From an uncultured Bacteroides sp. (GTDB lineage: Bacteria > Bacteroidota > Bacteroidia > Bacteroidales > Bacteroidaceae): DNA of 37,869 bases. Below are positions 7,434-33,157 of this stretch, piece by piece; position 1 is the first letter of the stretch, and the number at the start of each line of letters is the position of its first letter. Below the pieces are notes generated by a model. That model saw only the letters and a program-made list of their open reading frames with translations, made no database searches and was not told the origin of the DNA. The position numbers and the translations under genes were made by a program. The stretch spans positions 1 to 37,869 of the forward strand of contig CALUGY010000010.1 of the NCBI GenBank assembly GCA_944320295.1. The letters are read 5' to 3'.

Positions 7434-7510
7434 GAACATGTTGCGGGCGCGCCCGCAACATGTTCGGAGCACGGCCGCAACACGTTGGAAGCACGGCCGC
7501 AACGCGTTGC
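7434..7510 (+). repeat. Array A of the 22-bp palindromic repeat family (4 units)
   Basis: Four 8-bp cores begin at 7435, 7457, 7479 and 7501, exactly 22 bp apart: AACATGTT, AACATGTT, AACACGTT and AACGCGTT. They are joined by 14-bp GC-rich linkers such as CGGAGCACGGCCGC. The first two cores and their linker form a perfect 32-bp palindrome (7434-7465). The array lies between the GH38-like and GH2 genes. It is one of five such arrays in the window, all in the same orientation. There are no variable spacers, so it is not a CRISPR array. Function unknown. Confidence 0.9.
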
Positions 7511-7540
7511 GAGGAAACGGCTTGTCCGTACAGAATTATC

Positions 7541-7749
7541 TTATTGATTACGAGAAAGTTGTACATAGTCCAACCCCGCCAGCAGGCCGACGGTTTTTTC
7601 ATTCTTCTCCAACAAGACGAACTCCAGTTTGCCGGTCTCCTCGTCCTCATGTACAATACGTCCAAATCAAGCATTTCTTTGCCAACCACCGTGCGGCAAG
7701 TATCCTCCTCACTCACAAAAACGCCCCCGGAAAATGGGGTGGCAACGCT
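7541..7749 (-). pseudogene. Possible remnant of a small frameshifted gene after the GH38-like gene
   Basis: Two stretches look coding by composition but lie in different frames. Directly after, and in frame with, the GH38-like stop comes a segment containing TPFSGGVFVSEEDTCRT followed by VVGKEMLDLDV. A second frame then takes over near 7654, with VHEDEETGKLEFVLLEKNEK and TVGLLAGLDYVQLSRNQ ending at a TAA (7541-7543). Together they give about 69 residues of plausible, charged, globular protein interrupted by one frame change. I do not recognise the family and see no good start codon. It may be a decayed small ORF, or chance. The block ends just before repeat array A. Confidence 0.35.
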
Positions 7750-10302
7750 TCAGTCGTTCGACAAAAGGTGGTGGGGAGTATTCAGGTACTTATGGACTAC
7801 GGGATTCTCAACGGCCTCGGGCGTATTCACCACAGGCATCGGCATGTAATACGAATCGACCAAATCGGTCACCTGCTCCACGGAAGACTGCCCTTTGTCG
7901 AATGTCAGGTCGAACTCGAAGGTCATCTCGCCCGGCGAGTCTACGCAGAAGTTCACCACCCAAAGGTTATTGTAAAGCATGGCATACAGCTCGTTCACAT
8001 TTTCCGGGGCCTCTTGCAGGCGCATGCCCATGTTATGGCCTCCGCAGCTCACGATGGGCACGTCGCCCGACGACCATATGCGCGAGCCGTCGCCACCGTC
8101 GTACCTCACCCAGCTGTCTACCACAAAGAAGTCTTTGCACGAGTTGGGCAATTGGTCTTCATACAATTCGAACGGAACCCCGCCATTGGTGGCCAAGGGG
8201 CGACGGCAGTCTTCGGGGAAGGGGAACTTGACATAGAACACCTCCGGGGCAATGGACGAAGTCCTGTCGAAGAATATGCTGACCTTGGCCCTGGGAATCT
8301 CCTTGAACAGCTCCACTTGCCTGTTCAGGCTCTTCAGCCTCGGATGCGCCATGTCCTGCGAGATAATCCAGGAATAGGGCGTTTCCCTCACGCTGGCTTT
8401 CCCCGCAGGTCGGGCCCAATCGGTCTTGGTAATGCCCGCAAATTTCTGTATGCGCTGCGAGTCGGGCATGTGCATATACACGTCGCCTTGCGACCAACGG
8501 TCCATGTCATCATAATGCACCACCATGAAGTCGGCTATCCTCTCCGTAAACAGGGGCTTCTCCATGCCCGGCCATTGCGCAGAAGCAATCCAGCCGTCTT
8601 TGTCGAACACCAGTTCCGGCAAGTCGGCATGTCCGGCAGGCTGCGGAGCCTCATCCGTTTCAAGGGAAAAGCGGGTGAACGAATTGGCCGGCATGTCCGA
8701 CACCCAGAACCAAGCCTCCGTGCCGCCCGGCACAGCCTCCCTGGTGGTATTGAGATGCTCGTCCACCACCCAACGCCACACGTAGTCGCCCTCCTTGAAG
8801 AGAGGATAGGTTTGCCCGGTCTGCACGTTTTTCACCGACTGGTAATTCACTTCCCTGAAGCCGGTGACATCCAGCTTGACCCATCCCGTATAAGGCACGT
8901 TAGCCGCGTTGACCACATACAGTCCGGCCGGCTCCGTTGCAAACTTGTTGCGGGCCAATTGCGCCAAAAGATACTTTCCACGCTCCCACGGACGGAAGGC
9001 GTAGCTGTTCTTCTCGTTCAGCTGTCCCAACGTGTACAGGCTATAAGGGGCTTCCGACGTTTCATTCGACCCGTATGTGTGTTCAAAATAACGGCACAAC
9101 AGGCGGTTGATGTCTTTCAATTCCTCTTTTGTCCCTTCATTCGGCGTTCCCCATACTGGCGATTCTATGGCTTTCGTGTGATACACAGCCTTGCGGGCCA
9201 CTTCCATTTCGCGCGGCATGGCCGCCCCGCCAAAGGCCCACCAGTCCTGCCATTCTCCCTCGAAAGTCTGTAAGCGGTCGCCCACTTCCTTCTCTATATT
9301 TTCCATGGCTTCAGCGGCAGTTTTCATCCGCAATACCGGCTTCAGCCCCATTTCATTCCACTTCTCGATGAATGCAAGCAGCTGGGGCATCGGGCCGTCG
9401 TTGTCGCACCTCCATTCGTTGGTAAACGTCAGCGTGAGGAAAGGATAGTCATAGCCCTTGTCTCTCAGGTCTTGCAGGCGCTTCATACACACCGCGTGGG
9501 CCTTGCGCATGGATGCCGTATCCGTAGGCAATATGTTTCCAGTCCGAGGCCACGAGGTTTCCGTATTGGCATATTCGCGCTGTTGCAGCCTCCACTCGCG
9601 CTCGGCAAAGAAAAGGTATCCTTGCCAATAGGGATAGCCTGACCAAACCAGCACCTTGCGGTCATCGGGCATCTTCCACCAAAACGCGCTTGGCTGTTCT
9701 ACTGGTGACCCTCCCCAATGAGGATTGATTCCCGTCCATATGTAACGCACACCCCTGTCTAACAAACGCATGGCTGCCGCCCTCGGAAAACCGTTCACAT
9801 CGTGCTGCATGCCTATTTCGATATCCAGCTTGTCCCACAAGCCTTCCGGAATCCATTCGAACATAGCCTCCCATTGTTCTGCATTGGCATAAGGGTGGAT
9901 ATGGAAGGGCATCGCGTTAATGCCCATCTGCTTGGCCTCGATCATGTCGAGCATGTCTCTACGCCGTGTGTCCGAAGCCGACTTCCACCATAGTTCAAAC
10001 GGGTCAAGAGCCTCCACCGTCCACACAAACCGGTTCTCAGGCACTTCGTTACGGGTTTGCAAGGCCAAGTCCAAAGCCACATCAATAAACCGCTTGTGCA
10101 GGTCTACCGCAACGAGCGCATGGTCCGTATAGCCGTAATCGGTATGAGTCACATGCACCACGTCTATGTACTTATACCCAAGCGTGTCTTTTCCCTCTAC
10201 ATTACCCGCAGACATCTTGCCCCTCTCTCCTGCGCAACCGCAAAGCAGCATACAAGCCAACAAAAAACAGGCTACAAACAAATTACTAATAACATTCTTC
10301 AT
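7750..10302 (-). CDS. Lipoprotein glycoside hydrolase family 38-like (alpha-mannosidase fold) enzyme
   Basis: An 850-residue protein with a lipoprotein signal (LCGC, Cys23), so it is predicted to be anchored in the cell envelope. The N-terminal catalytic region resembles GH38 retaining alpha-mannosidases. VVHVTHTDYGYTDH places the metal-ligand pair His53-x-Asp55, and IGMQHDVNGFPRA puts Asp168 where GH38 has its nucleophile and metal ligand. RFVWTVEALDPFELWW and MGINAMPFHIHPY follow the family's strand order. The first motif departs from the canonical HxHxD GW pattern (one His is replaced), so this belongs to a divergent Bacteroides branch close to DUF5054 proteins and its linkage specificity is unknown. 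The C-terminal ~450 residues are beta-rich, as in GH38. It starts 35 bp after the regulator gene and is followed by array A and the GH2 gene. Confidence 0.8.
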   Translation of the reverse strand: MKNVISNLFVACFLLACMLLCGCAGERGKMSAGNVEGKDTLGYKYIDVVHVTHTDYGYTDHALVAVDLHKRFIDVALDLALQTRNEVPENRFVWTVEALDPFELWWKSASDTRRRDMLDMIEAKQMGINAMPFHIHPYANAEQWEAMFEWIPEGLWDKLDIEIGMQHDVNGFPRAAAMRLLDRGVRYIWTGINPHWGGSPVEQPSAFWWKMPDDRKVLVWSGYPYWQGYLFFAEREWRLQQREYANTETSWPRTGNILPTDTASMRKAHAVCMKRLQDLRDKGYDYPFLTLTFTNEWRCDNDGPMPQLLAFIEKWNEMGLKPVLRMKTAAEAMENIEKEVGDRLQTFEGEWQDWWAFGGAAMPREMEVARKAVYHTKAIESPVWGTPNEGTKEELKDINRLLCRYFEHTYGSNETSEAPYSLYTLGQLNEKNSYAFRPWERGKYLLAQLARNKFATEPAGLYVVNAANVPYTGWVKLDVTGFREVNYQSVKNVQTGQTYPLFKEGDYVWRWVVDEHLNTTREAVPGGTEAWFWVSDMPANSFTRFSLETDEAPQPAGHADLPELVFDKDGWIASAQWPGMEKPLFTERIADFMVVHYDDMDRWSQGDVYMHMPDSQRIQKFAGITKTDWARPAGKASVRETPYSWIISQDMAHPRLKSLNRQVELFKEIPRAKVSIFFDRTSSIAPEVFYVKFPFPEDCRRPLATNGGVPFELYEDQLPNSCKDFFVVDSWVRYDGGDGSRIWSSGDVPIVSCGGHNMGMRLQEAPENVNELYAMLYNNLWVVNFCVDSPGEMTFEFDLTFDKGQSSVEQVTDLVDSYYMPMPVVNTPEAVENPVVHKYLNTPHHLLSND

Positions 10303-10337
10303 GATAGTTCATATTAAAGGTTCTACATCAGCCTTTC

Positions 10338-13300
10338 CTATGTTTTGTCCGTGTCATCTCTGTTCCCGAAGTCTTTGGGCAAAACACCGAACTGCTTCAA
10401 AAAGCACTTGGAGAAATAAGACGGGGAATTGAATCCCACCATATAACATATCTCTGTAACACGGTTCTTCCCTTCACTCAACAGTTGTGCCGCACGCTTC
10501 AGACGTTCAATGCGCAGATATTCATTGGGAGTCAGGTCAAGCACGCCTTTCATCTTGCGATAGAAATTAGAGCGGCTCATGTTCAACATCTCCGCCATGT
10601 TCTCCATGGAAAACTCCGGATTGTGCAGGTTGGAAAGGATCACATCGTTCAATCGCCTGATGAACTCCTCGTCCGACTTTGTCAACGCCATCGTATTTGC
10701 CGCGACAAACGGCGATTGGGCAAATGTTTGGCGAAGCTGTTCCCTGTTCCTTATCAAATTGGATACGGTTGCCCGGAGATATTCCAACGAGAACGGCTTC
10801 TCAATGTACGCATCAGCTCCCTGTTCCAATCCTTCTATCTTAGACTGCACATTGGTCTTTGCCGTCAACAGTACTATCGGAATATGGCTATAGTCCAACT
10901 GGGATTTCACGACCTGACATAGTTCAAAGCCATCCATAACAGGCATCACCACATCACTCACTATAAGATTGACAACGTGCTTATCCAATATATGTAAAGC
11001 TTCCGCACCATTCGCAGCGGTCAATACCACATATTCCTCGGACAAATGATGGGCAATAAATGAAAGCATCCCCGCATGATCATCCACTACCAATATGGTA
11101 TACTTCCTCCCAGTCTTTCCATTCGCTTTTTCATTCTTTAAAAGAACATTCTCCGCTACTCCGGAAGGAACGTATTCAGAGTCCATGACAATGGCATTCT
11201 GCTGGACAAGCGGCAATGACAGGCAAAACACATTATCCGTGCCTTTCTCCATCATCAGGCTTCCGCGATGGAGTTCCGCCAACGAACGTGAGAGAGCCAA
11301 TCCAATGCCTGTTCCGGCTACGACCTTGGCATCTCCCCTATCAAAACGCATAAAAGGCCTAAAGATGTCCTCTTTCATCGCATCAGGAACCACAGGGCCA
11401 TCATTTACTGTACGCACATAAAAGCATTCGCCGGGCGGAACATCAACGTCCAAGCTTATCGACAACCGGGTATCGGCATATTTCACACCGTTACTCAACA
11501 GATTACTCAGTATCTTGGTAAACGCTTCTTTATTGACATGCGCATGTAACTCGTCAGGTGGCAAGTGCAATGTAAAATCCAGCCCTTTCTGCTTGGCAAG
11601 GGAAGTAAACCTTAAATAGGTGCTCCTTACTATTTCTGTTACATTGCATTCTGTAAAGTTTAAGTTATAAACTTTGCTTTCAGCCCTATGGAAATCCAAC
11701 AGTTGGTTTGTCAATGTCAGCAGCCGTTCCGTGTTCTGTTTCATGATATTCAAATCCTCCCGCGTCTCAGCATCGACGTCCCTACGCAAGATTATGTTCT
11801 CCAACGGCCCCTTTATCAATGTCAAGGGAGTGCGTATCTCGTGTGCCACATTGATGAAAAAGTCGAACTTAGCATCGTAAACCTCCTTCTCTTTCTCTTG
11901 CTCGAATTTCTCATGTTGACGCTGCCGCTTCTTGCGACTTCTATTTCTCACATACAAATACAAGCAGAGAGAAAAAGAAACAAATAAAATGGCATAGAGG
12001 CCGTAAGCCCATGCCGAGAAATAGAATGGTGGCAAAATACATATCTCAAGGCGCACATCGCCCGGCCCTTCTGCCTTGTTTTCATCAGAAGCCTTCAGAT
12101 GGAACACGTATTCTCCGTGAGGCAGATTGGAATAAGACACCAAAGGGTTCTCGCCTACCGCGTGCCAACCCGAGTCAAAACCTTCCAGCTTGTATTTCAG
12201 CTTGTTTGATTTGGAAGTCTGGTAGTCTAACGACGCAACACGGAATGCAAACGAATGTTGCTCCGATGTTAGCAGAATCCTCTTGGTGCAAGTGATGCTT
12301 TCCTGCAAAGGTGAATTGTCTTTCCCCGGGCGCATCGCTTCATTAAAAAGCAAGAAATCGGTAATGACGGCGCAAGGGACATGGGTGTCTTCAGAAAACG
12401 TAGCGGGGTTAAAGGCAATGAAACCGTCTATGCTTCCAAAATAAATAGTGCCATCCCGTTCCTTAAAACCTGAACGGTAATTAAACTGGTTACTCAACAA
12501 GCCATCGTCCATGGTATAGACCTTCACGACCTTCTCCCCTACAGGGTCGAAGTGAACCAATCCACTATTCGTAGTCATCCAGAACAGCCCTTCCGCATCT
12601 TCTACAATCTGATAAACCACATCATTCGGCAGTCCGCAACGAGTGTCATAACGGGTAAAGTCCAAACTGTCGGGGTGGTAACGGCACACGCCCCCGCCTT
12701 GGGTCGTCAGCCAGACATTCTTACGGGAATCTTCAAAGATGCTCAAAACCTTATTTGCCGACAAGCTACGGGCATCGGAGTCTATATAGCGGAAATTTTT
12801 CCACTTCTTCTGTACGACATCGTAACGGAAGGCGCCATCCACATAAGTGGCCAGCCACAAATTGCCTCCTGCGTCTTCTTTGATGTCGTAAACGAACTTG
12901 CCTGCCAGTTCGGGCACATTGATAAAACTGTCGGTGCTCTTGTCATAATGCTGCAGGCCGGCACTAGTCCCTACGAACACCTCACCCGCACGCGTTTTGA
13001 ATATGGCAAATACATTGTTATCGTTCAATCCCCTGGAGGCTGCATCATAACCGTATGAACGTATCAGCCTTTTGGTGCGGGGGTCGATGACTTTCAGCCC
13101 CTTGGTGAATGTGCCCACCCACAGTTCGTTACCTACCATGCAGAGCCCGTGCACATTGGTAAAGGCAAGACTGGGAGTGAAGAAGTCTATCCGCCCGGTC
13201 CGCATATCAAAGCAATTCAAACCACCGTCTTCCGTACCTATCCACAGGTTGCCCATACCGTCCGGACAAAACTCGCGTACCCGGCGACCATGCAGGCTGC

Positions 13301-14381
13301 TTTCATCGGACTTAGGGTAATATTTCTCGAAACAGGCATAAGAGCGCGGATAATAGTTCACGCCACCGAAGTAAGTGCCTATCCAAACACCCTTTTCCGA
13401 GTCTTTGTAAAGGGAATAGATTGCATTGTCCGATAAGGAATAAGGGTCATAAGCCGAGCTTTCCTGATGCACGAATTCCCTTGTACGCAAGTTATAAATA
13501 TAAAGCCCGGATTCCGTGCCTATCCACAGTTCGTTGTCGGAGAAAGAGAGCAGTTCGCGGCTCCAAATGCGCTCGCCATGCTCGTCCACGAGCAACAAGT
13601 CGTGTGCCCGTCCCGATGCCAGGTCGAGTTCTTTCACGCCATTGCCCACAGAGGCCACGTAAAGGCAATTGTAGGCTCCCATCGCCATCTCGGCAATGAT
13701 GTCGTTGGCAAAAGGCTCGCGGCCGTCCGCAGCCACATACGGATGAAGCGTCTTGAAACCGTCGTCCGTGTAGAACAGCCCGTTGCCGTAAGTGCCCACC
13801 CACAAGCGGCCTCCGTTGTCGTGCACGAGGCACGTCACGGTGGCGCGGATAAAGGGAAATTCCTCCAGCGTATAGTTCTTGAGCGAACCGTCCTTGGAGT
13901 TGTAACAAAAGACGCCTTGGCGTTCCACGGCTATCCATACATGCCCGTCCTTGTCTTTCTTTATCAGGGGAACCGCATTGATTATCCTTGTCTTCTCACG
14001 GCTGATTTGCTGGAAGTATTCAAAGGTTTCCATCTGCGGGTCATAGATGTAAAGCCCCATGTCCGTGCCCACCCAGATGTTGCCCTCATCGTCCTCGCAC
14101 AAGGCCATGACATAGTTGCATCCCAGGCTGTGCGGGTCGGAAGCATCGTGCTTGAACTTCCGGAAGGAGGAGCCGTCGTAGCGGTTCAGCCCGTCTTTCG
14201 TGCCGAACCACATGAAGCCCGTCTTGTCCTGCAAAATGGCATACACCGTGTTTTGCGACAGTCCGTCTTTCACGTCCAACCCCTCGAAATAATAGTAGTT
14301 CCCTCTTTTCCCGTAACAGCAGAGGGAAAAGAAGAAAAGTGCCACTACCCATATGACGTGTTTCATCACTATGCGTTTCAT
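10338..14381 (-). CDS. Hybrid two-component system regulator (HTCS): periplasmic sensor, histidine kinase, receiver, AraC output
   Basis: About 1347 residues from the Met at 14381, or 1342 from 14366. A signal/anchor segment (VIWVVALFFFSLCC) precedes a two-bladed beta-propeller sensor made of repeats such as GLSQNTVYAILQDKTGFMWFGT, then a Y_Y_Y domain and one membrane helix (SAWAYGLYAILFVSFSLCLYL). Inside the cell are the kinase dimerisation domain with phospho-acceptor His847 (NVAHEIRTPL), an ATPase domain (GTGIGLALS), a receiver with Asp1143 (LIVSDVVMP) and a C-terminal AraC helix-turn-helix. Such proteins sense a glycan breakdown product in the periplasm and switch on their own PUL. An upstream ATG at 14414 is unlikely as start, because it would lie at the transcription start expected from the -7 box at 14419-14426. 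All genes of the locus lie downstream on the same strand. Most of the gene is AT-richer than its neighbours on the right. Confidence 0.95.
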   Translation of the reverse strand: MKRIVMKHVIWVVALFFFSLCCYGKRGNYYYFEGLDVKDGLSQNTVYAILQDKTGFMWFGTKDGLNRYDGSSFRKFKHDASDPHSLGCNYVMALCEDDEGNIWVGTDMGLYIYDPQMETFEYFQQISREKTRIINAVPLIKKDKDGHVWIAVERQGVFCYNSKDGSLKNYTLEEFPFIRATVTCLVHDNGGRLWVGTYGNGLFYTDDGFKTLHPYVAADGREPFANDIIAEMAMGAYNCLYVASVGNGVKELDLASGRAHDLLLVDEHGERIWSRELLSFSDNELWIGTESGLYIYNLRTREFVHQESSAYDPYSLSDNAIYSLYKDSEKGVWIGTYFGGVNYYPRSYACFEKYYPKSDESSLHGRRVREFCPDGMGNLWIGTEDGGLNCFDMRTGRIDFFTPSLAFTNVHGLCMVGNELWVGTFTKGLKVIDPRTKRLIRSYGYDAASRGLNDNNVFAIFKTRAGEVFVGTSAGLQHYDKSTDSFINVPELAGKFVYDIKEDAGGNLWLATYVDGAFRYDVVQKKWKNFRYIDSDARSLSANKVLSIFEDSRKNVWLTTQGGGVCRYHPDSLDFTRYDTRCGLPNDVVYQIVEDAEGLFWMTTNSGLVHFDPVGEKVVKVYTMDDGLLSNQFNYRSGFKERDGTIYFGSIDGFIAFNPATFSEDTHVPCAVITDFLLFNEAMRPGKDNSPLQESITCTKRILLTSEQHSFAFRVASLDYQTSKSNKLKYKLEGFDSGWHAVGENPLVSYSNLPHGEYVFHLKASDENKAEGPGDVRLEICILPPFYFSAWAYGLYAILFVSFSLCLYLYVRNRSRKKRQRQHEKFEQEKEKEVYDAKFDFFINVAHEIRTPLTLIKGPLENIILRRDVDAETREDLNIMKQNTERLLTLTNQLLDFHRAESKVYNLNFTECNVTEIVRSTYLRFTSLAKQKGLDFTLHLPPDELHAHVNKEAFTKILSNLLSNGVKYADTRLSISLDVDVPPGECFYVRTVNDGPVVPDAMKEDIFRPFMRFDRGDAKVVAGTGIGLALSRSLAELHRGSLMMEKGTDNVFCLSLPLVQQNAIVMDSEYVPSGVAENVLLKNEKANGKTGRKYTILVVDDHAGMLSFIAHHLSEEYVVLTAANGAEALHILDKHVVNLIVSDVVMPVMDGFELCQVVKSQLDYSHIPIVLLTAKTNVQSKIEGLEQGADAYIEKPFSLEYLRATVSNLIRNREQLRQTFAQSPFVAANTMALTKSDEEFIRRLNDVILSNLHNPEFSMENMAEMLNMSRSNFYRKMKGVLDLTPNEYLRIERLKRAAQLLSEGKNRVTEICYMVGFNSPSYFSKCFLKQFGVLPKDFGNRDDTDKT

Positions 14382-14418
14382 GGTTCCAAGCGTTAGCAAG
14401 CATTGCCTTGTCATGTTG

Positions 14419-14447
14419 CAAAAATAGCCAATTTACAAGACATGCAA
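14419..14447 (-). promoter_or_regulatory. Candidate promoter of the HTCS gene
   Basis: On the minus strand, TTG (14445-14447) is followed after 18 nt by TATTTTTG (14419-14426), which matches the Bacteroidetes -33/-7 pattern. Transcription would begin near 14412, leaving a leader of about 30 nt before the ATG at 14381 and excluding the ATG at 14414. Confidence 0.5.
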
Positions 14448-14518
14448 GAGGGAAATGCGTCCCAATGAATGTAAAAAACGTCCAAACGCACGGCCGGCAC
14501 AAGCGGCCCGCGCCTCCG

Positions 14519-15373
14519 TCAATGCCTGAAGCCCGGCACGTCGGGCATGATGGTGGGACCGCCACGGCGATGGTCGTCCTTCTGGATAAGCCCGCGAATC
14601 ACCTCGTAAATGATGGGGCCGACGTCTATCTGGAGCTTGAAATGGTCGAAGTTATAGTAAGGAGCCACGATGGGGCGCGTTTCCCAGCGGCCCATGGCGG
14701 GATTGTAGTATCGCTCCACACCCAACTCCATGCCGAACCGGTCGGTCACGTCGAAACCCATGGTGCCGCCATAGCTGTACGAGGTGAAGCCGCCGAAGTT
14801 GCCGTAGTCCACCGAGCCGAAAGCGCGGAAGTAGAGCCGGTCTTGCGCCTGGTAGTACAGCATGCCCGACGTGCCGAACGACTGCCCGGTGAAGTGTGCG
14901 GCGTTCATCTTGATGGCGCCCACGGTGAGCGACAGGTGGAGCCGTTCGTTGAGTTGGCGCTGGTAGCCCACCTCGGCCACGTTGTAGCGGCCGATGCCGG
15001 GCACGGTAGTCTGCGCCCCCGAAGCCGTGAAGTATCCGCCGCCCACGCGGCCTATCACGCCGCCGGTGCTGTAGTCGCCGCGGAACATGGGCGAGGGGTT
15101 GACGGCATAGGGCAAGGCCATGGCGTTGCGCAACAGGAAGCTCGGCGGGGGTAGCTGTCTGGAAGGCATGGGAAGCGCAGGCAGCTCCGCGCTTGGGGGA
15201 GCAAGCAGGGCGGGCGCCTGGAGCGGCTGCGACGGTTGCGGGAAGAACACGTCAAGCGGTTGCACGCGCAGGCTGTCTTCCTGTTGTGCAAGTGCCGCCG
15301 GCCCGGCCAGGAGCATCGCCGCAAGGCACCACAGGCGGAACGGCGGGAAACGGCGTATCTTCATCTCTCCCAT
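14519..15373 (-). CDS. Secreted, probably outer-membrane beta-barrel protein of unknown function
   Basis: About 284 residues from ATG 15373, or 281 from ATG 15364. A signal peptide (FRLWCLAAMLLAGPAALAQ) is followed by a proline-rich stretch (about 35-80) with many PxxPxxP patterns. A glycine- and aromatic-rich region of alternating short strands follows (GGVIGRVGGGYFTASG, YRQLNERLHLSLTVGAIK-like, RLYFRAFGSVDYGNFGGF, GGTMGFDVTDRFGMELGVERYY), as expected of a small outer-membrane barrel. I do not recognise a named family. An in-frame extension to 15643 is rejected because it would translate straight through repeat array B. It follows no operon: the HTCS gene lies downstream with its own promoter, and mnmG is divergent. 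A degenerate -7 (TATCTTCG at 15378-15385) may serve it and would favour the 15364 start. Confidence 0.7.
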   Translation of the reverse strand: MGEMKIRRFPPFRLWCLAAMLLAGPAALAQQEDSLRVQPLDVFFPQPSQPLQAPALLAPPSAELPALPMPSRQLPPPSFLLRNAMALPYAVNPSPMFRGDYSTGGVIGRVGGGYFTASGAQTTVPGIGRYNVAEVGYQRQLNERLHLSLTVGAIKMNAAHFTGQSFGTSGMLYYQAQDRLYFRAFGSVDYGNFGGFTSYSYGGTMGFDVTDRFGMELGVERYYNPAMGRWETRPIVAPYYNFDHFKLQIDVGPIIYEVIRGLIQKDDHRRGGPTIMPDVPGFRH

Positions 15374-15487
15374 ACCGCGAAGATAGGAAAAATATACGAA
15401 TCGTTTCCGCGAAGAAAACGAAATACTCTCCCTTGAAAAACATGCTCTGCAACATAAAAACCTCCAGCCTATCCGGCAAACAAGCGC

Positions 15488-15561
15488 GACATGTTGCGGG
15501 CGCGGACGCAACATGTTCCGAGCACGCTCGCAACGCGTTGCGGACACGCTCCGTACACGTT
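15488..15561 (+). repeat. Array B of the 22-bp palindromic repeat family (4 units)
   Basis: Cores GACATGTT, AACATGTT, AACGCGTT and TACACGTT begin at 15488, 15510, 15532 and 15554, exactly 22 bp apart. Linkers include CCGAGCACGCTCGC. The first two cores and their linker form a near-palindrome resembling the perfect one in array A. Unlike the other four arrays, this one lies between two divergent genes. Confidence 0.9.
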
Positions 15562-15660
15562 GCGCCCAAAAGCCGTATACACAGGGTGCCTGGAAGGGGA
15601 AAACGGCGGAAACCCTTCCTGTTTCAACAAAAGAAAGGTTCAATCTGTTTCTGACATTTT

Positions 15661-15761
15661 GTAAGCATTTAGAGAGGAAACATCAAGAAAACAAGCCATA
15701 AAAGAGGAACAGAAGCTACATAAAAGAGAAACAAGTAGCAAGAATCCAAACAAATGCTTAC
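15661..15761. repeat. Spaced inverted repeat GTAAGCATTT / AAATGCTTAC
   Basis: Perfect 10-bp arms at 15661-15670 and 15752-15761 are 81 bp apart and both abut an ATTTTG or CATTTTG-like tail. The 13-mer GCTTACATTTTGA at the right arm (15757-15769) recurs at 26607-26619 upstream of the DUF3836 gene. Possible regulator sites; chance is not excluded. Confidence 0.35.
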
Positions 15762-15923
15762 ATTTTGATTCCGGACAAACGGCAAATCCTCGCGATTTTC
15801 CGTCGCGCCCCGCCCGTTGTGCGCGAAAATCGCAAGCAAATGGCATCAGGAAGAAGGCTTTCACCCGCAAAACCCGCCTTTTCCTTTCCTGTGAAAAAAA
15901 TCCGCGAACTCGTGCGTTTTTAG

Positions 15924-15931
15924 TAACTTTG
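15924..15931 (+). promoter_or_regulatory. -7 element TAACTTTG of mnmG
   Basis: An exact match to TAnnTTTG, 27 bp before the ATG at 15959. It overlaps the upstream in-frame ATG at 15929, so that codon would lie inside the promoter. This decides the mnmG start in favour of 15959. No clear -33 TTTG is seen at 19-20 nt. Confidence 0.6.
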
Positions 15932-15958
15932 CACGCAGTAACACAACTTCATGCAAGA

Positions 15959-17833: not shown

Positions 17834-17839
17834 CTCCGT

Positions 17840-17855: not shown

Positions 17856-17888
17856 AACGCTTGAATAACGTAAATAAATCTATTAAGT

Positions 17889-18413: not shown

Positions 18414-18449
18414 AACATTTAAAAAGGACTCCATACACAAACAAGGAAA

Positions 18450-20456: not shown

Positions 20457-20552
20457 AACGTGTCCGAAGCGCGGGCGCAACACGTTCGGAGCAAGGACGC
20501 GACACGTTGCGAGCAAACGCGCAACATGTACGGAGCAAACGCGCAATATATA
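20457..20552 (+). repeat. Array C of the 22-bp palindromic repeat family (5 units)
   Basis: Cores AACGTGTC, AACACGTT, GACACGTT, AACATGTA and the degenerate AATATATA begin at 20457, 20479, 20501, 20523 and 20545, all 22 bp apart. Linkers read CGGAGCAAGGACGC, GCGAGCAAACGCGC and similar. The last unit keeps spacing but has lost the C and G of the core, as if decaying at the array edge. It lies 50 bp past the uvrC stop. Confidence 0.88.
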
Positions 20553-22460: not shown

Positions 22461-22487
22461 GACACATCTGCCCGGAAAGGCAAACAA

Positions 22488-22529: not shown

Positions 22530-22547
22530 CGCTTTCATATAATCACG

Positions 22548-23525: not shown

Positions 23526-23542
23526 GAAACGCTATTTGCGCA

Positions 23543-23550
23543 CAAAAGTA
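23543..23550 (-). promoter_or_regulatory. -7 element TACTTTTG of the polyprenyl synthase gene
   Basis: On the minus strand this matches TAnnTTTG exactly and gives a leader of about 10 nt. The divergent polA start is 86 bp away; a weaker plus-strand element TACTTTTA (23583-23590) may serve polA. Confidence 0.5.
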
Positions 23551-23611
23551 GTAATAAAACGTCGAATACCGTATTTTCTTCGTACTTTTACCATGAAAAA
23601 ACGATGAATAT

Positions 23612-26452: not shown

Positions 26453-26528
26453 AAGCGGAAACAACATTATTTAACTTACAATCAGAAAGCCACTCCGCAA
26501 AGCCGCCGCACAGGCACTTTGCATCGTG

Positions 26529-26563
26529 AAATATCCGGCGAAGCAACCGCCGGATATTTTTTT
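26529..26563 (+). terminator. Intrinsic terminator of polA
   Basis: A 12-bp perfect stem (AAATATCCGGCG, 26529-26540, with 26548-26559) around a 7-nt loop, followed by a T-run to 26563. Confidence 0.9.
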
Positions 26564-26662
26564 GGCGCAAAAGCAGCCAAAAGGAAAGGGGCACACGATA
26601 GTCATAGCTTACATTTTGACAATAAATAACCATACTTTAACACATATTCCCCGGTTACAGCG

Positions 26663-26670
26663 TACATTTG
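26663..26670 (+). promoter_or_regulatory. Candidate -7 element TACATTTG of the DUF3836 gene
   Basis: An exact TAnnTTTG match 63 bp before the ATG at 26734. A further TACATTTTG-like stretch lies at 26610-26618 and includes the 13-mer shared with 15757-15769. No well-spaced -33 TTTG is seen. Confidence 0.45.
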
Positions 26671-26733
26671 CTGCCAATCAAGCAAACAAACAGTAGAAAA
26701 TAGTAAGTACAACTCTAAAAACATATTTGTCCT

Positions 26734-27126
26734 ATGAAAAGAAACATTTCTGTAAAAGCAGCACTTCTTTCGGCACTCTTCGTGGTTTGCGGCATGAGTG
26801 CTTCCGCAGAGCACAGAAGCAATCTCATTTACAATTCAGAAGAAGCCAACGGACTGAAGGTGGCTGAAACCATCTACAAGTCGGAGGGCAACACGCTGGC
26901 CAAGTACATGAAGTACAACTACACCTACGACGCGCAACGCCGCATGACGCAAAGCGAGGGACTGAAGTGGAACGACCGCAAAGGGAAGTGGGAGAAGGAC
27001 ATCTGCCTGCGCTATGCCTATAATGGCAAAAGCGTGACTACCACCTATTATAAATGGAATCAGAAGAAAGGCGCATACGAGCTGTTGCCCGACATGACCG
27101 TAACCATGGACGCCACGAACCTGTAA
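26734..27126 (+). CDS. DUF3836 secreted protein
   Basis: A 130-residue protein with a clear signal peptide (MKRNISVKAALLSALFVVCG, cleavage near SASA-EH). The mature part has repeating YNYTYDAQRRMTQSEGLKWN and LRYAYNGKSVTTTYYKWNQK segments, rich in Tyr, Lys and Trp and typical of Bacteroides DUF3836 proteins. The repeats resemble short YD-type beta-hairpins. No catalytic residues are evident and the function is unknown. It is monocistronic: the polA terminator is upstream and its own terminator follows at 27201-27236. Confidence 0.75.
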   Translation: MKRNISVKAALLSALFVVCGMSASAEHRSNLIYNSEEANGLKVAETIYKSEGNTLAKYMKYNYTYDAQRRMTQSEGLKWNDRKGKWEKDICLRYAYNGKSVTTTYYKWNQKKGAYELLPDMTVTMDATNL

Positions 27127-27200
27127 CCCGCGGCACGCTCCCTTAAAGTATTGCAAGACTACTGACCTGAACCAAATACTCTTTTTATAACATGAACCGG

Positions 27201-27236
27201 GGCCGGAGTGCGTGATGCATCCCGGCCTTCTTTTTA
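27201..27236 (+). terminator. Intrinsic terminator of the DUF3836 gene
   Basis: A GGCCGG stem (27201-27206) pairs with CCGGCC (27222-27227) around a partly paired 15-nt loop and is followed by TTCTTTTT. Confidence 0.75.
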
Positions 27237-27331
27237 TACATCCGCCACAGAATCTCCACGGAAAACCTGGAAAAATGCAACGAATTAACTATTTTTAGTG
27301 ACTATGTGATGTAAGACCGTTAAAAATGGCT

Positions 27332-27339
27332 TATATTTG
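27332..27339 (+). promoter_or_regulatory. Candidate -7 element TATATTTG of the DUF805 gene
   Basis: An exact TAnnTTTG match, which would give a leader of about 113 nt before the ATG at 27459. No -33 box is clear. Confidence 0.4.
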
Positions 27340-27458
27340 CGAAAAACGAATCAGCACATTACCGCCTATGATGCACAACAAAGCACAGCACGACGGATAT
27401 GCTAATACGTAATGAGAAAACACTTATCTTTTTGTTCAATTTAAAAACACTTCTAACC

Positions 27459-27839
27459 ATGAATGATTTTATTCAAGCCCTGAAGAAATGGAAAGACTTC
27501 TCCACTCGGGCACGGAGACGCGAGTACTGGATGTATGTACTGTTCTTGATTCTTACGCTCATCGTGGCCATGATACTGGACACGATAATATTCGGCTTCC
27601 CTGTGGCCCTCTTCTACGGTTTGGTCTGCCTGCTCGCCATCGTGCCCAGCATCGCAGTCTGCGTGCGTCGTCTGCACGACACCGGCCGCAGCGGGTGGTG
27701 GTACTTCATCCAGCTCGTGCCCTTCATCGGCGGCATCTGGCTCTTCATCCTGATGTTGCTCGACAGCCAGCCGGGCACCAACCAGTACGGCCCGAACCCC
27801 AAAGGCATCGAAGGCCCGATGAACTATCAACAGCAATAA
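27459..27839 (+). CDS. DUF805 inner-membrane protein
   Basis: A 126-residue membrane protein starting MNDFIQALKKWKDFSTRARRREYW, the conserved N-terminus of DUF805. About four hydrophobic segments follow (MYVLFLILTLIVAMILDTIIFG; VALFYGLVCLLAIVPSIAVCV; WWYFIQLVPFIGGIWLFILMLL) with the family motif VRRLHDTGRSGWWY between the second and third. The C-terminus has the usual PGTNQYGPNPK. The function of the family is not established. The start at 27459 is chosen over 27399 because family similarity begins there. A strong terminator follows within 15 bp. Confidence 0.85.
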   Translation: MNDFIQALKKWKDFSTRARRREYWMYVLFLILTLIVAMILDTIIFGFPVALFYGLVCLLAIVPSIAVCVRRLHDTGRSGWWYFIQLVPFIGGIWLFILMLLDSQPGTNQYGPNPKGIEGPMNYQQQ

Positions 27840-27853
27840 AAAAAACGCACAAT

Positions 27854-27879
27854 GCCCCGGCCCGCCGCCGGGGCTTTTT
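27854..27879 (+). terminator. Intrinsic terminator of the DUF805 gene
   Basis: GCCCCGGC (27854-27861) pairs with GCCGGGGC (27867-27874) around a 5-nt loop, followed by five Ts. Repeat array D begins 38 bp later. Confidence 0.92.
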
Positions 27880-27916
27880 CATGCCTGTACACGCCATGTA
27901 TGACGGGCAAACGCGC

Positions 27917-27990
27917 AACATGTTGCAAGCGCAAGCGCAACGCACACGGAGCACGGGCGCAATGCGTTCGGAGCGCGGACGCAACGCGTT
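27917..27990 (+). repeat. Array D of the 22-bp palindromic repeat family (4 units)
   Basis: Cores AACATGTT, AACGCACA, AATGCGTT and AACGCGTT begin at 27917, 27939, 27961 and 27983, each 22 bp apart. Linkers include CGGAGCACGGGCGC and CGGAGCGCGGACGC. It lies after the DUF805 terminator and before the ychF promoter, so it is probably untranscribed or weakly transcribed. Confidence 0.88.
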
Positions 27991-28077
27991 GCGGGCAAAA
28001 GCGGGAAAAGCAGGGGAAGTTCATGCCTCAAAATCAAATCTCTACGCAAACATGCCCCGTATTAGGCGGGATTTTGC

Positions 28078-28085
28078 TACTTTTG
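28078..28085 (+). promoter_or_regulatory. Candidate -7 element TACTTTTG of ychF
   Basis: An exact TAnnTTTG match 53 bp before the ychF ATG. No -33 TTTG is evident at the usual spacing. Confidence 0.5.
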
Positions 28086-28138
28086 CAGGCTGAATAAGAA
28101 CCAAACAAGAACGATACAAAAATAATCTTACAACGACT

Positions 28139-29242
<1,104 letters not shown>

Positions 29243-29254
29243 GGAAAGGATATT

Positions 29255-29848
29255 ATGCTGCCAACACTCATCATCCAAGAGAAGATACACATCATACGCG
29301 GCGAGAAAGTAATGCTTGACTATGACTTAGCCGAAATGTATGGAATGGAAACCAGAACGCTGAAACAAGCAGTAAGAAGAAATATAAATCGTTTCCCTTC
29401 CGATTTCATGTTCGAGCTAACCAAGGAAGAACATGTATCTTTAAGATCACAATTTGTGACCTTAAAGACCGGACGGGGTCAGCATTCCAAGTATCTTCCT
29501 TTCGCCTTCACCGAGCAAGGTGTTGCCATGCTTTCTTCCATCCTGAACAGCGAGACCGCCATCGAAGTGAACATCGCCATCATGCGCACCTTCGTGGCCG
29601 TACGGCGGTTGGTGATGGGCGGCACAGCTCTGCCCTCCTCGCCTGCCGAGCGCATCGAGAAGCTGGAACATGACGTACAGGCATTGAAGGAATACATGGA
29701 AGAAGTGTTCCGTGACCAAAACGATATAAATGAAGACACCCGCACGCAGGTGGAGCTTATCAACCAAGCCTTGGCGGAACTGCAAGTCGCAAAGCAACGT
29801 GCAGAGAAACCCCGCAACCCCATAGGCTTCATCAAACCCGGACAATAG
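29255..29848 (+). CDS. ORF6N-domain DNA-binding protein
   Basis: A 197-residue protein. The N-terminal ~110 residues are an ORF6N domain (LIIQEKIHIIRGEKVMLDYD, LAEMYGMETRTLKQAVRRN, RFPSDFMFELT, PFAFTEQGVAMLSSIL, VNIAIMRTFVAVRRL), best known from phage antirepressors and from abundant chromosomal Bacteroides copies. The C-terminal part has a coiled coil (about 130-185, SPAERIEKLEHDVQALKEYM). It presumably binds DNA; targets are unknown. The purine-rich AAGGAAAGGA just upstream is a strong ribosome-binding site. The first half is AT-richer than ychF, suggesting a separate origin. It sits 12 bp after ychF, probably read from the ychF promoter. Confidence 0.88.
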   Translation: MLPTLIIQEKIHIIRGEKVMLDYDLAEMYGMETRTLKQAVRRNINRFPSDFMFELTKEEHVSLRSQFVTLKTGRGQHSKYLPFAFTEQGVAMLSSILNSETAIEVNIAIMRTFVAVRRLVMGGTALPSSPAERIEKLEHDVQALKEYMEEVFRDQNDINEDTRTQVELINQALAELQVAKQRAEKPRNPIGFIKPGQ

Positions 29849-29914
29849 CCATGGGGCAAAACAGCCTATGTGCCATACTATAAAAGGAAGAAGCAAACAA
29901 CTACCACCCCGGAT

Positions 29915-29945
29915 TTTGTGCTTTGAAAAATAAAAGCTACATTTG
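29915..29945 (+). promoter_or_regulatory. Promoter of lgt (TTTG-N19-TACATTTG)
   Basis: TTTG at 29915-29918 and TACATTTG at 29938-29945 are separated by 19 nt, an excellent match to the Bacteroidetes vegetative promoter. Transcription should begin near 29952, giving a leader of about 70 nt. Confidence 0.75.
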
Positions 29946-30022
29946 GCACCGCGAACAGGGAAACACGTCAAGCCCCGCCCGCAAACCGACATACAAAAAC
30001 TGCAAAACAAACCGGAAACATC

Positions 30023-30928
30023 ATGCTACCACTACTCGACATTCATTGGAACCCCGACCCTGAGCTGTTCAAGCTCTTCGGCACCATCTCCATACGCTAC
30101 TACGGACTGCTATGGCTCATAGGACTGGCCTTGGCCTTCTTCATCGTGAAGAAGCAGTATGCCGACCGGCGCATAGGCAGCGACAAGTTCGACCCGCTGT
30201 TCTTCTACTGTTTCTTCGGCATCCTGATAGGCGCACGCCTGGGCCACTGTCTGTTCTATGAACCGGAGTACTACTTCTCCGGATGGAAGCCCTTCCTTGA
30301 GATGTTCCTCCCCATCAGGTTCGGGGAAGGCTGGGGATGGACGTTCACCGGCTACCGGGGGCTGGCCAGCCACGGCGGAACACTCGGCCTCATCATCGCC
30401 CTGTGGCTCTACTGTCGCAAGACAAAGGTGCACTACATGGACGTGTTGGACATGATTGCCGTGGCCACGCCCATCACCGCCTGCTGCATACGCCTGGCCA
30501 ATTTGATGAACTCAGAGATCATAGGCCGTCCCACCACGGTGCCCTGGGCCTTCGTGTTCGAACAGGAGGACATGCTACCGCGTCATCCGGCACAACTCTA
30601 CGAAGCCATAGCCTACTTCGTGTTCTTCCTCATCATGGTGTGGTTGTACAGGAGGAAAAAGCAACCTATGGAGCAAAAGCCCCGCACAGACTTCAGCAAG
30701 GGAAGCAAGACAGCTGTACAACCCCTGTCTTCCGGCTACCACAGAGGCTTCTACTTCGGCCTGTGCCTGACGGAGATATTCGCCTTCCGCTTCTTCGTCG
30801 AGTTCCTGAAGGAGAACCAAGTGGACTTCGAGGAGGGCATGGCACTCAACATGGGGCAATGGCTCAGCATCCCCTTCATGCTCATAGGGCTGTACTTCAT
30901 GTTCTTCTACGATAGGAAGAAAGCTTGA
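30023..30928 (+). CDS. lgt: Prolipoprotein diacylglyceryl transferase
   Basis: A 301-residue inner-membrane enzyme that transfers diacylglycerol from phosphatidylglycerol to the lipobox cysteine of prolipoproteins, the first step of lipoprotein maturation. Seven or so membrane helices are visible. [14 protein letters not shown] contains the family's essential His, [17 protein letters not shown] corresponds to the Lgt signature (usually GRxGNFxN), and [10 protein letters not shown] carries the conserved Arg/His/Tyr. A basic insert (about 210-245) is longer than in E. coli Lgt. Several envelope enzymes in this window carry lipoboxes and would be its substrates. No terminator is seen before the SGNH gene 72 bp downstream. 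Confidence 0.96.
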
Positions 30929-31000
30929 AACGGCATTGCCAGTCTCCCCGCTCCCCGATTGTATCAATCCGAATGACATAACCTGTAAAACCAGAGAACC

Positions 31001-31705
31001 ATGACAAAGAAAGCATTACTCGCCGTAGCATGCCTGCTGTTCCTCCTCGCCGGAACGGCCACGGCACAGAACAATGCCCACGAATGGGCCAACTTCAAAC
31101 GTTATGCCGAACAGAACGCACAGCTCAAGGCCGACGGCTCCGCCGCCGGAAAGGTGGTGTTCATGGGCAACTCCATCACCGAGGGATGGGTGAACCAACA
31201 CCCGGACTTCTTCACGAAGAACGGATACATAGGCCGGGGCATCAGCGGACAGACTTCGTACCAATACCTGCTGCGCTTCCGGCAAGACGTGGTGGAACTG
31301 GCACCGCGCATCGTGGTCATCAACGCCGGCACCAACGACATTGCCGAGAACACGGGAGCCTACAACGAAGACTACACCTTCGGCAACATCGTCTCGATGG
31401 TGGAAATGGCGCAGGCCAACGGAATCAAGGTGATACTGACCAGTACGCTGCCCACCAAGACCTTCGGTTGGAGGCCCGAAATCACCGACGCCCCGCAGAA
31501 GATAACCGCGCTGAACAAGCGCGTGAAAGCCTATGCCGACGCACACGGCATCCCGTACGTGGACTACTACTCCCGCTTCGTAGACCCTGCCACACAGGGA
31601 CAGCAGGAGCAATATACGCTGGACGGCGTGCACCCCAACTCCAAGGGATATGACGTGATGGAGGCGCTGATACAGCCTGCCATCGAGGCCGCAAGCCGCA
31701 AATAA
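31001..31705 (+). CDS. Secreted SGNH/GDSL-family hydrolase (carbohydrate esterase-like)
   Basis: A 234-residue protein with a signal peptide (MTKKALLAVACLLFLLAGTA, cleavage after TAQ). The four SGNH blocks are present: GNSITEGW with nucleophile Ser58, GRGISGQT with the oxyanion Gly, NAGTNDIAENTG with Asn112, and LDGVHPNSKGY with Asp208 and His211 completing the triad. Members act as acyl esterases or lipases. Here the following GH76 and GH125 genes suggest removal of acyl decorations from a mannose-rich glycan, which is inference. It is followed by the GH76 gene after 27 bp, so the two are likely co-transcribed. Confidence 0.92.
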   Translation: MTKKALLAVACLLFLLAGTATAQNNAHEWANFKRYAEQNAQLKADGSAAGKVVFMGNSITEGWVNQHPDFFTKNGYIGRGISGQTSYQYLLRFRQDVVELAPRIVVINAGTNDIAENTGAYNEDYTFGNIVSMVEMAQANGIKVILTSTLPTKTFGWRPEITDAPQKITALNKRVKAYADAHGIPYVDYYSRFVDPATQGQQEQYTLDGVHPNSKGYDVMEALIQPAIEAASRK

Positions 31706-31732
31706 TCCGAACCAAACACATACAAGACAAAC

Positions 31733-32926
31733 ATGAAAAGGACATCTGCCATGCTGTTGGGCGGCCTGTTGCTGGCCGCCTGCTCCGGCGCGACGAAACA
31801 AACGGCCGACCCCGTCAGCCTGACGCGCGCCACCGAAACGCTCGATTCGCTCTACGCACACTATGGCGTGGAGGGAGCCTTCCTGCTCCGCGAGAACTTC
31901 CCCTTCGAGGGAGACTACAAAGCCACCTATCTGGCCACGGAACAAACGGAACAAAACCAACCCAACCCTTACTCTTACCTCTGGCCATACTCAGGCACGT
32001 TTACCGCCGTGAATTGCCTCTACGAGGCCACCGGCAACGAGAAGTACAAGACGCTGCTCGAACAGCGCGTGCTGCCCGGCCTGAAGGAATACTTCGACAG
32101 CGAGCGGCAACCCGCCGCATATGCCTCATACCTGCGCATCACTCCCCTGCCCGACCGTTTCTACGACGACAACATCTGGCTCGGCATCGACTACACCGAC
32201 CTTTATGGCATGACGGGAGACAAGCGCTACCTGCAAGAGGCGGAAGACATATGGAAGTTCATCGAGAGTGGCACGGACAGCGTGCTGGGCGGAGGCATCT
32301 ACTGGTGCGAGCAGCGGAGGGATTCCAAAAACACCTGCTCCAACGCGCCCGGCAGCGTGCTGGCCCTGAAACTGTTCCGCGCCACGGCCGACAGCAGCTA
32401 CCTGCGGCAAGGCAAGGCGCTCTACGACTGGACGCGCCAGTTGCAGGACAGCACCGACGGACTGTACTTCGACCACATCCGGCTGGACGGCACCATAAGC
32501 CGGCCCAAATACGCCTACAACAGCGGGCAGATGATGCAGGCTGCCACGCTGCTTTACCACCTGACGGGTGAGGAACGCTACTTGCACGAGGCGCAGCACA
32601 TAGCACGCGGCTGCTACGTGCACTTTTTCGAAGAATACGCCCCCGAAGGGAAACCCTCCTTCCGCCTGCTGCGCAAGGGCGAGACGTGGTGCACCGCCGT
32701 GATGCTGCGTGGATTCATCGAACTGGCGCTCGCAGACGGCGACATGCGCTACATCGACGCGTTCAAGCAAAGCTTAGACTATGCGTGGACCCATGCCCGC
32801 GACGAGAACGGCCTGTTCTCGCAAGACTTCAGCGGACGCAACCCCGACCAACGGAAGTGGCTGCTCACGCAAGCGGCCATGGTGGAGATGTACGCACGCC
32901 TCGCCGCCTTCCCCGCAAGGAAATAA
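31733..32926 (+). CDS. Lipoprotein glycoside hydrolase family 76 (endo-alpha-1,6-mannanase)
   Basis: A 397-residue protein with a lipobox LAAC (Cys17), so it is probably surface or periplasmic lipid-anchored. It has an (alpha/alpha)6 barrel pattern, and the two consecutive catalytic aspartates of GH76 lie in RFYDDNIWLGIDYTDLY (Asp145-146). Further family stretches are GGIYWCEQRRDSKNTCSNAP and YAYNSGQMMQAATLLY. GH76 enzymes cut the alpha-1,6-mannan backbone of fungal mannan and some bacterial mannosides. The GH125 gene downstream would trim the released oligosaccharides. Between them lies 231 bp carrying repeat array E, so whether the two are on one transcript is open. Confidence 0.9.
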   Translation: MKRTSAMLLGGLLLAACSGATKQTADPVSLTRATETLDSLYAHYGVEGAFLLRENFPFEGDYKATYLATEQTEQNQPNPYSYLWPYSGTFTAVNCLYEATGNEKYKTLLEQRVLPGLKEYFDSERQPAAYASYLRITPLPDRFYDDNIWLGIDYTDLYGMTGDKRYLQEAEDIWKFIESGTDSVLGGGIYWCEQRRDSKNTCSNAPGSVLALKLFRATADSSYLRQGKALYDWTRQLQDSTDGLYFDHIRLDGTISRPKYAYNSGQMMQAATLLYHLTGEERYLHEAQHIARGCYVHFFEEYAPEGKPSFRLLRKGETWCTAVMLRGFIELALADGDMRYIDAFKQSLDYAWTHARDENGLFSQDFSGRNPDQRKWLLTQAAMVEMYARLAAFPARK

Positions 32927-32976
32927 AACAGCCATGCGGAGGCCCGGAATGCCGCACTCGTACGCTCGTCGGGCGC

Positions 32977-33050
32977 GACATGTTCCGAGCGCAAGCGCAA
33001 CATGTTGCGAGCACGGCCGCAACACGTTCGGAGCAAACGCGCAACACGTT
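32977..33050 (+). repeat. Array E of the 22-bp palindromic repeat family (4 units, perhaps a decayed fifth)
   Basis: Cores GACATGTT, AACATGTT, AACACGTT and AACACGTT begin at 32977, 32999, 33021 and 33043, each 22 bp apart. A degenerate AATACACG sits in register at 33065. Linkers include GCGAGCACGGCCGC and CGGAGCAAACGCGC. The array separates two functionally linked mannan-degrading genes on the same strand. Confidence 0.9.
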
Positions 33051-33157
33051 GCGGGCAAAGGCCCAATACACGGCCATCGGTTCCGGAACATACCCCATTG
33101 AAATACAACGCAATAACGGATAATACCCACAAACTATAGAACAACCATACAGAAAGC

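Follow-up and report, generated by a model that had tools for sequence, protein, structure and literature searches.

The stretch of 37,869 nucleotides analyzed here (the window; positions 1 to 37,869 of contig CALUGY010000010.1, assembly GCA_944320295.1, from an uncultured Bacteroides sp.) carries five intergenic arrays of a 22-bp unit with a palindromic AACRYGTT core. The analysis shows a 22.0-bp sequence lattice along the chromosome of this organism (genome G000; 116 contigs totaling 2.53 Mb, completeness of 81.5%), of which the arrays are the visible peaks. The main point missed by the first-pass annotation, which had described the arrays from the letters of the window, is that distant arrays and the coding DNA between them share this 22-bp register. 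The lattice phase is given as position modulo 22, masked analyses exclude the arrays, and genes were called by a codon-bias script rather than taken from an annotation. The array census covers 769.5 kb of G000 (the window and additional stretches), with its first 378 kb forming an earlier subset. The main comparison genomes are two sister metagenome-assembled genomes (MAGs) of rumen Bacteroidaceae, RGIG2783 and RGIG8159, together with the array-less genome G064.

All five arrays of the window are found where they had been placed, each with four sites on the plus strand, at 7435..7508 (phase 21, from 7435 mod 22), 15488..15561 (phase 0), 20457..20530 (phase 19), 27917..27990 (phase 21), and 32977..33050 (phase 21). 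Their core-to-core spacing is exactly 22 bp throughout, as claimed, and the units number 20 (5 × 4) instead of the 21 counted before. The possible extra unit suspected at 33065, AATACACG, fits the degenerate outer sites in the logo of 42 four-unit arrays, as does AATATATA at 20545 beyond the third array. Some units are imperfect, e.g., GACATGTT, AACGTGTC, TACACGTT, and AACGCACA; the last of these is the weak second unit of the fourth array and the reason for the absence of this array from the automatic chain search. The strict two-unit pattern AACRYGTT-N14-AACRYGTT occurs six times in the window, compared to none in each of 100 dinucleotide shuffles.

All 36 distances below 5 kb between neighboring arrays of G000 match multiples of 22 to within 4 bp, with a standard deviation of 1.8 bp. 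A period scan from 5 to 60 bp over 223 array pairs less than 20 kb apart peaks at 22.002 bp (power of 48.1), followed by 11.002 bp (12.8). Contigs outside the discovery set show the same register, with five of five neighbor distances below 5 kb deviating from a multiple of 22 by no more than 3 bp. The register coherence R reaches 0.88 at 3 to 5 kb.

The DNA between the arrays of the window carries, also within genes, a weak 22-bp GC lattice in one phase, which extends from 5001 to 35000. Twelve consecutive 2.5-kb bins of this region, with arrays masked and a template trained on other contigs, show phases of 20, 21, 21, 0, 21, 20, 21, 21, 21, 20, 19, and 20 (fit r of 0.24 to 0.82), while the two preceding bins have phases of 9 and 11 and the following one has a phase of 3. 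At a period of 22, the window alone reaches a z score of 8.7 for the core and 7.7 for GC, with values of at most 2.0 and 1.7 at other periods. Masked 2.5-kb bins on the G000 contigs analyzed agree with the phase of the nearest array to within 2 bp in 86 of 105 cases at 0 to 1.25 kb, 46 of 78 at 1.25 to 2.5 kb, and 36 of 74 at 2.5 to 5 kb, compared to 23.9, 17.7, and 16.8 matches expected by chance.

Genes take part in this pattern. Coding GC of G000 folded on the array phase gives chi-square values (21 degrees of freedom) of 333, 251, and 150 at 100 to 600, 600 to 1500, and 1500 to 3000 bp from the arrays, in contrast to 15 to 25 for three random sets of 109 anchors, and the folded profile is dyad symmetric in these ranges (r of 0.96, 0.87, and 0.94). 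RGIG2783 and RGIG8159 carry the pattern in a weaker form, with corresponding chi-square values of 61, 33, and 56 and of 94, 37, and 29, respectively. Codon position 3 shows the GC modulation at about double strength, and positions 1 and 2 carry it as well; the harmonic amplitudes of the modulation amount to ∼2% GC near the arrays and fall with distance from them. Coding DNA at a distance of over 1 kb from any array shows raised autocorrelation at multiples of 22, with Stouffer z scores of 11.2 in G000, 6.5 in RGIG2783, and 7.3 in RGIG8159, and other periods from 15 to 39 stay below 2, apart from 33, which has multiples in common with 22. When the surroundings of the arrays are divided into 110-bp bins up to a distance of 882 bp, phase 0 scores highest among the 22 phases in seven of eight bins in G000 and in the first five of eight in the rumen MAGs; for coding DNA only, these numbers are eight of eight and five of eight.

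Fourier analysis of the masked GC track of G000 reveals a sharp line at 11.00 bp (power of 2.71 versus 0.98, z score of 15, 8.4-kb windows) and a further line at 7.333 bp, with which the A-minus-T track concurs. The GC tracks of RGIG2783 and RGIG8159 show a line at 22.0 bp with z scores of 5.2 and 7.4 in 8.4-kb windows (5.2 to 7.4 across 4.2- and 8.4-kb windows), and the core autocorrelation of this pair reaches 9.2 and 10.3. Ranked by core-likeness, the top eight of 206 offsets in the two rumen MAGs are exactly 22, 44, and so on up to 176 bp; the ranking in G000 is led by 15, followed by 22, 88, 29, and 110. Strict ACRYGT pairs outside the arrays of G000 are too sparse for a lattice to show in their distances.

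The census confirms a chromosome-wide intergenic element, as the first-pass annotation had supposed. The 769.5 kb hold 109 arrays, none within called genes, of which 93 have four units, 9 have five, and 7 have three; extrapolation leads to a total of ∼350 arrays for G000. Eight other periods between 18 and 26 give 2 chains in total, compared to the 109 at 22. The first 378 kb yield 52 chains at period 22, none at 16 other periods from 14 to 30, and 11 and 4 at 33 and 44 bp, whose multiples are common with 22. G000 contains 185 forward and 136 reverse matches to the strict two-unit pattern, in which some places appear on both strands owing to the palindromic cores; the 60 relatives searched, 36 of them congeneric, contain none. 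Intergenic regions of at least 150 bp contain an array in 100 of 216 cases and never two in one gap. An apparent avoidance of convergent gaps in the first 378 kb (2 arrays for 23 such gaps with a length of 30 bp or more) disappears in the full 769.5 kb (8 of 19 gaps of at least 150 bp).

The claims of dyad-symmetric ACRYGT-type sites, spaced by two helical turns on one face of the DNA, and of a fixed purine-pyrimidine center hold up. This center is kept in 437 of 438 cores of the 109 arrays, and the unit is dyad symmetric, with palindrome centers 11 bp apart in the AACRYGTT core and at the CRYG center of the G+C-rich linker. In the logo, AACRYGTT cores alternate with G+C-rich linkers, and weaker ATATA-like sites stand one period beyond the array. 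The likeness of the core to AflIII-like recognition sites is presumably a mere coincidence of motif. Alignment of 92 arrays by their centers reveals a symmetric, damped 11-bp wave of G+C and A+T reaching ∼115 bp on each side, with a left-right correlation of 0.88. The phase coherence of the G000 arms at period 11, measured 47 to 102 bp from the outer core, amounts to an nR2 of 21.9 for 216 arms, compared to 0.0 for 178 control arms at array-less intergenic regions and just 2.8 for 42 arms within genes. The arms of RGIG2783 and RGIG8159 show no 11-bp wave past the near arm.

A single orientation of the arrays holds roughly in the window, where a linker model reads them as plus, ambiguous, plus, and plus with the fifth below the detection threshold, but does not extend to the genome as a whole, in which both orientations occur and many arrays are mixed. 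A replichore-oriented element is not borne out as formulated: in 73 of 103 arrays, the orientation runs against the local GC skew (p of 2.7e-5). Orientation is also unrelated to the strand of most genes nearby, with agreement in 54 of 103 arrays, and its strand bias is of a statistical nature only. The linker orientation agrees with the intergenic AT skew in 76 of 103 arrays, and the consensus forward linker contains up to three A and no T, which makes strand-biased mutation the simpler reading.

A protein lattice would cover the fixed 22-bp step, the dyad symmetry, the fading helical phasing, and the kilobase register through genes. The candidate is an abundant dimeric DNA-binding protein that would coat or wrap much of the chromosome with one contact per 22 bp, corresponding to two helical turns of 11.0 bp each. 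The intergenic arrays with their four sites would act as high-affinity nucleation sites and phase-setting anchors. Register-breaking insertions and deletions would be disfavored or compensated because neighboring anchors must fit one continuous lattice, and the bases between anchors would drift towards the pattern. If the protein kept DNA at 11.0 bp per turn, compared to a usual value of about 10.5, ∼4.5% negative twist would be stored, and one likely role of the lattice would be to constrain supercoils and to set chromatin domains between transcription units. On balance, the sequence evidence leans towards such a register-locked nucleoprotein lattice, with a predicted dimer per 22 bp and anchored at the arrays. 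The stronger version, a sequence-registered bacterial chromatin in which selection keeps the lengths of genes and spacers between anchors at multiples of 22 bp as in a crystal-like grid, is put forward more tentatively, with slightly less than even confidence; the array-to-array register is the argument for some selection on length, in line with a general proposal for bacterial periodicity (PMC7537859).

Several results weigh against a protein lattice of this kind. The coherence R weakens with distance, to 0.56 at 5 to 7.5 kb, 0.53 at 7.5 to 10 kb, 0.40 at 10 to 15 kb, and 0.2 to 0.4 beyond; bins more than 5 kb from the nearest array do not match its phase (9 of 33 bins with 7.5 expected, and 3 of 15), and on contigs outside the discovery set, the register at 5 to 10 kb is not significant (n = 7). 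Isolated AACRYGTT sites more than 1 kb from G000 arrays are barely in register (chi-square of 28 and 34), and start and stop codons of G000 show no lattice phase. Periodic sites in one register over kilobases, as expected of a nucleoid lattice, are present in G000, whereas an array-to-array register is not detected in RGIG2783 (28 distances) or RGIG8159 (44 distances), the genomes G148 and G149, perhaps due to a wider array spacing; the A-minus-T tracks of these two MAGs lack the 22-bp line, and their 60-kb samples are weak on their own (3.5 and 1.8). RGIG9746 (G153) has arrays and no lattice in 56 kb, so that arrays and lattice are separable. Across genera, array positions are not shared beyond chance among the 30 and 10 orthologue pairs compared. 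A search for DNA-packaging proteins covering HU and the histone fold found unremarkable HU-family counts and the histone fold PF00808 in none of seven genomes, compared to matches in 3 of 14 control genomes.

A protein that binds periodically in the phase of the arrays could also pattern mutation or repair, so that genes gain the 22-bp pattern passively and without selection. Passive mutational patterning of this kind is reported for nucleosomes. The weakness of the genic pattern, its decay away from the arrays, and its strength at third codon positions fit such an occupancy imprint, and linker orientation following strand composition suggests that mutation bias probably shapes the arrays. Passive patterning alone, however, does not force anchors kilobases apart onto multiples of 22, and the pattern extends to codon positions 1 and 2. 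The imprint is judged a rather unlikely explanation.

The arrays with their 11-bp-phased arms could instead wrap gyrase or bend the tips of supercoils, once per intergenic region. The gyrase motif of Escherichia coli spans 130 bp with G+C arms of a 10.75-bp period, and some intergenic BIME-2 elements (bacterial interspersed mosaic elements) are gyrase sites (PMC6379681). G000 shows the same type of symmetric element with helically phased G+C arms, with a period of 11.0 bp and an overall length of ∼230 bp compared to the ∼130 bp expected. Symmetric phased arms and proposed wrapping are common to the arrays and to the gyrase motif, BIME-2, and repetitive extragenic palindromic (REP) sequences of E. 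coli, and BIME-2 elements are intergenic as well (PMC6379681). In contrast to the arrays, the E. coli motif is described as degenerate, and the excerpted text of that paper mentions neither a shared register nor a genic lattice. Sites of this kind predict neither the kilobase register nor the lattice in genes, and arrays in the other lattice genomes comprise 3 to 10 units; gyrase or plectoneme-tip sites are judged improbable.

Hundreds of intergenic copies with species-specific linkers and a patchy distribution, besides some three-unit elements of relatives that look like miniature inverted-repeat transposable elements (MITEs) with conserved ends, might point to selfish dispersed repeats of the REP/BIME or MITE type. 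Flanking duplications, which the first-pass annotation had named as evidence against its own reading, are not found at the boundaries of 92 arrays: the best z score for a target duplication is 3.8 in 35,840 boundary tests, some of which may be undefined. The Y1 transposase of REP-associated tyrosine transposases (RAYT; PF01797) has no match in G000 (82% complete), compared to matches in 5 of 14 control genomes, and no transposase is recognized between 15 array pairs less than 3.5 kb apart, judged by the first 60 residues of the genes. Linkers are no more alike within G000 arrays (0.66 and 0.63) than between them (0.67), which also speaks against a tandem repeat made by slippage in G000; within-array likeness exceeds that between arrays in G148 (0.64 and 0.72 versus 0.52) and slightly in G149 (0.62 and 0.58 versus 0.56). 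Selfish repeats leave the register between copies and the genic lattice unpredicted, are in conflict with the register of G000, and are a very doubtful explanation.

Operator arrays of one global transcription factor are scarcely probable. A paper on a mycobacterial TetR-type regulator contains AACACGTT/AACGTGTT many times (PMC1995591), and arrays in tandem gene pairs lie at a median of 178 bp upstream of the next gene start. Against operators, arrays occur at similar frequencies in convergent, tandem, and divergent gaps of at least 150 bp (8 of 19, 63 of 136, and 29 of 61), and their positions are not conserved at cross-genus orthologues, although few are comparable.

An artefact produced by the assembly, the gene calls, or repetitive proteins is a negligible prospect: the assembly is fragmented, and proteins repeating every 22 residues would lead to a period of 66 bp, which is divisible by 22 and outside the Fourier listing range of 6 to 45 bp, but 33 bp is not among the strongest lines listed for G000, the masked phase is found in coding and intergenic DNA and in other MAGs and not at random anchors or in G064, and the register links intergenic arrays as well.

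Two further element classes were not supported for G000. A run of five T, as in an intrinsic terminator, follows the last core within 24 bp in none of 108 G000 arrays; it does so in 12 of 54 arrays in G149 and 3 of 30 in G148. Against structured RNA, base pairing is below expectation at six of seven linker dyads (e.g., 0.38 versus 0.52) and slightly above it at one (0.79 versus 0.77); the mean folding z score of −2.6 over 60 arrays is of the kind that palindromes would give.

The proposed protein lattice resembles several known systems in part. H-NS combines high-affinity nucleation sites with weaker flanking sites and spreads from them, similar to anchors with weak flanks, but is not known to have a fixed 22-bp sequence register such as that of G000. 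Eukaryotic and archaeal nucleosome arrays are phased by strong positioning sites encoded in the sequence, with a repeat of tens to hundreds of base pairs; G000 shares the sequence-encoded phasing but has a 22-bp repeat and no histone-fold gene found. Iteron and centromere arrays, such as the 20-bp repeats of parC, are tandem dimer sites with two-turn spacing at one or few loci, in contrast to the ∼350 extrapolated loci of G000 with neighbors in register. Bacterial nucleoids are usually viewed as dynamic, without fixed long-range positioning of proteins on the sequence. No description of a 22-bp genomic register or of such a repeat was found in the full-text literature, preprints excluded, among the titles and abstract beginnings listed, and searches for a 22-bp period gave no papers. 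A further related system is the 10- to 11-bp periodicity of dinucleotides and A-tracts in bacteria, a signal described by a damped sine whose period depends on the species, such as 11.07 bp in E. coli (PMC516772, PMC3431218, PMC7537859), and for which compensatory insertions and deletions are predicted (PMC7537859). This periodicity is likewise a helical-period bias that runs within genes, and it is argued to be under selection. The G000 pattern differs by its line at 22/11 bp, kilobase phase coherence, defined dyad motif, and discrete anchors. A base-pair-exact lattice through genes would, if true, be a chromatin code in bacteria. It would constrain insertions, deletions, and the choice of codons in a new way and give direct access to the storage of twist in chromosomes. 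It would make the old question of the purpose of the 10- to 11-bp periodicity directly testable.

Arrays and lattice are patchily distributed among other genomes. A survey of relatives with model R1 is positive in 6 of 148 genomes, including that of the window. An order-level survey with model R2 is positive in 3 of 393, again including the window's own, and is insensitive because just 12 candidates per genome were scored. Among five congeners with model hits, four have looser 22-bp families and G087 has no chain. Rumen Bacteroidaceae MAGs among the matches listed contain arrays with identical core and period and differing linkers. Pooling five loci of four other rumen MAGs gives a z score of 5.0 for the lattice, with single values of 5.0, 4.0, 2.0, and 0.2 (5 to 16 kb). 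G015 is weak (3.7 for the core, 1.5 for GC), and G021 is equivocal, with 3.0 at 22 but 3.8 at 23 and 2.6 within a 60-kb part. No Fourier line is found in G021 or G064, and neither 200 kb of G064 nor 27 loci from other bacteria show a lattice. The polA loci of 11 congeners and 26 kb of G158 show no lattice; these loci hold no chain, and the array search did not extend to four of the congeners, including G158.

The sister MAGs RGIG2783 and RGIG8159 indicate how the arrays turn over. Three orthologous arrays have unit numbers of 5/4, 5/7, and 4/5; in two of these, the linkers largely differ, once in mostly reversed orientation, while the cores are kept. Both MAGs have arrays at three of three locatable intervals, with just 3 of 30 arrays locatable. 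When the comparison is restricted to 20 gaps of strict orthology, arrays are present in both genomes at 2 and in neither at 18. On the 3' side of orthologues, 5 arrays are shared, 1 is found in a single genome, and 25 sites have neither (p of 3.5e-5), compared to 2, 4, and 25 on the 5' side (p of 0.07).

Other 22-bp elements were observed in relatives. G100 (L100, L106, L109, L113, L117, L121, and L124) has dispersed arrays of 6 to 11 units of another repeat, approximately AACGCCTTGGGAAAGAAGTCCC, several with a common flank containing TTTGCTTAGGGGGAACG. G079 and G084 (L099, L102, L110, L111, L114, L115, L118, L119, and L122) as well as G063 (L268 and L270) have mostly three-unit elements, most with one or both ends conserved (aacttcAACGTGTTGA ... 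AACAAACCCCTCTCAGAAGGCCTGTAG), and these look more like a mobile mini-element than like the arrays of the window. The arrays of RGIG9746 (L129, L139, L147, and L152) are bounded by inverted ends resembling TTGTTGCACC / GGTGCAACAA. A ten-unit array at G148:C68:240924 (L208) has two alternating linker types, i.e., an expansion in 44-bp dimers.

The PolA protein encoded in the window has matches in 115 of 119 genomes, with full-length identities of 71 to 84% to relatives. The PolA proteins of G034 (C2:266678-269839) and G102 (C5:20628-23789) match in two pieces ∼390 bp apart within frames of 1069 and 1095 amino acids, which suggests that the exonuclease and polymerase parts are separated by an in-frame insertion. 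An otherwise ordinary gene of G000, that for HU, has short repeats just upstream (L303:253-540) that read PRVGY in more than one frame.

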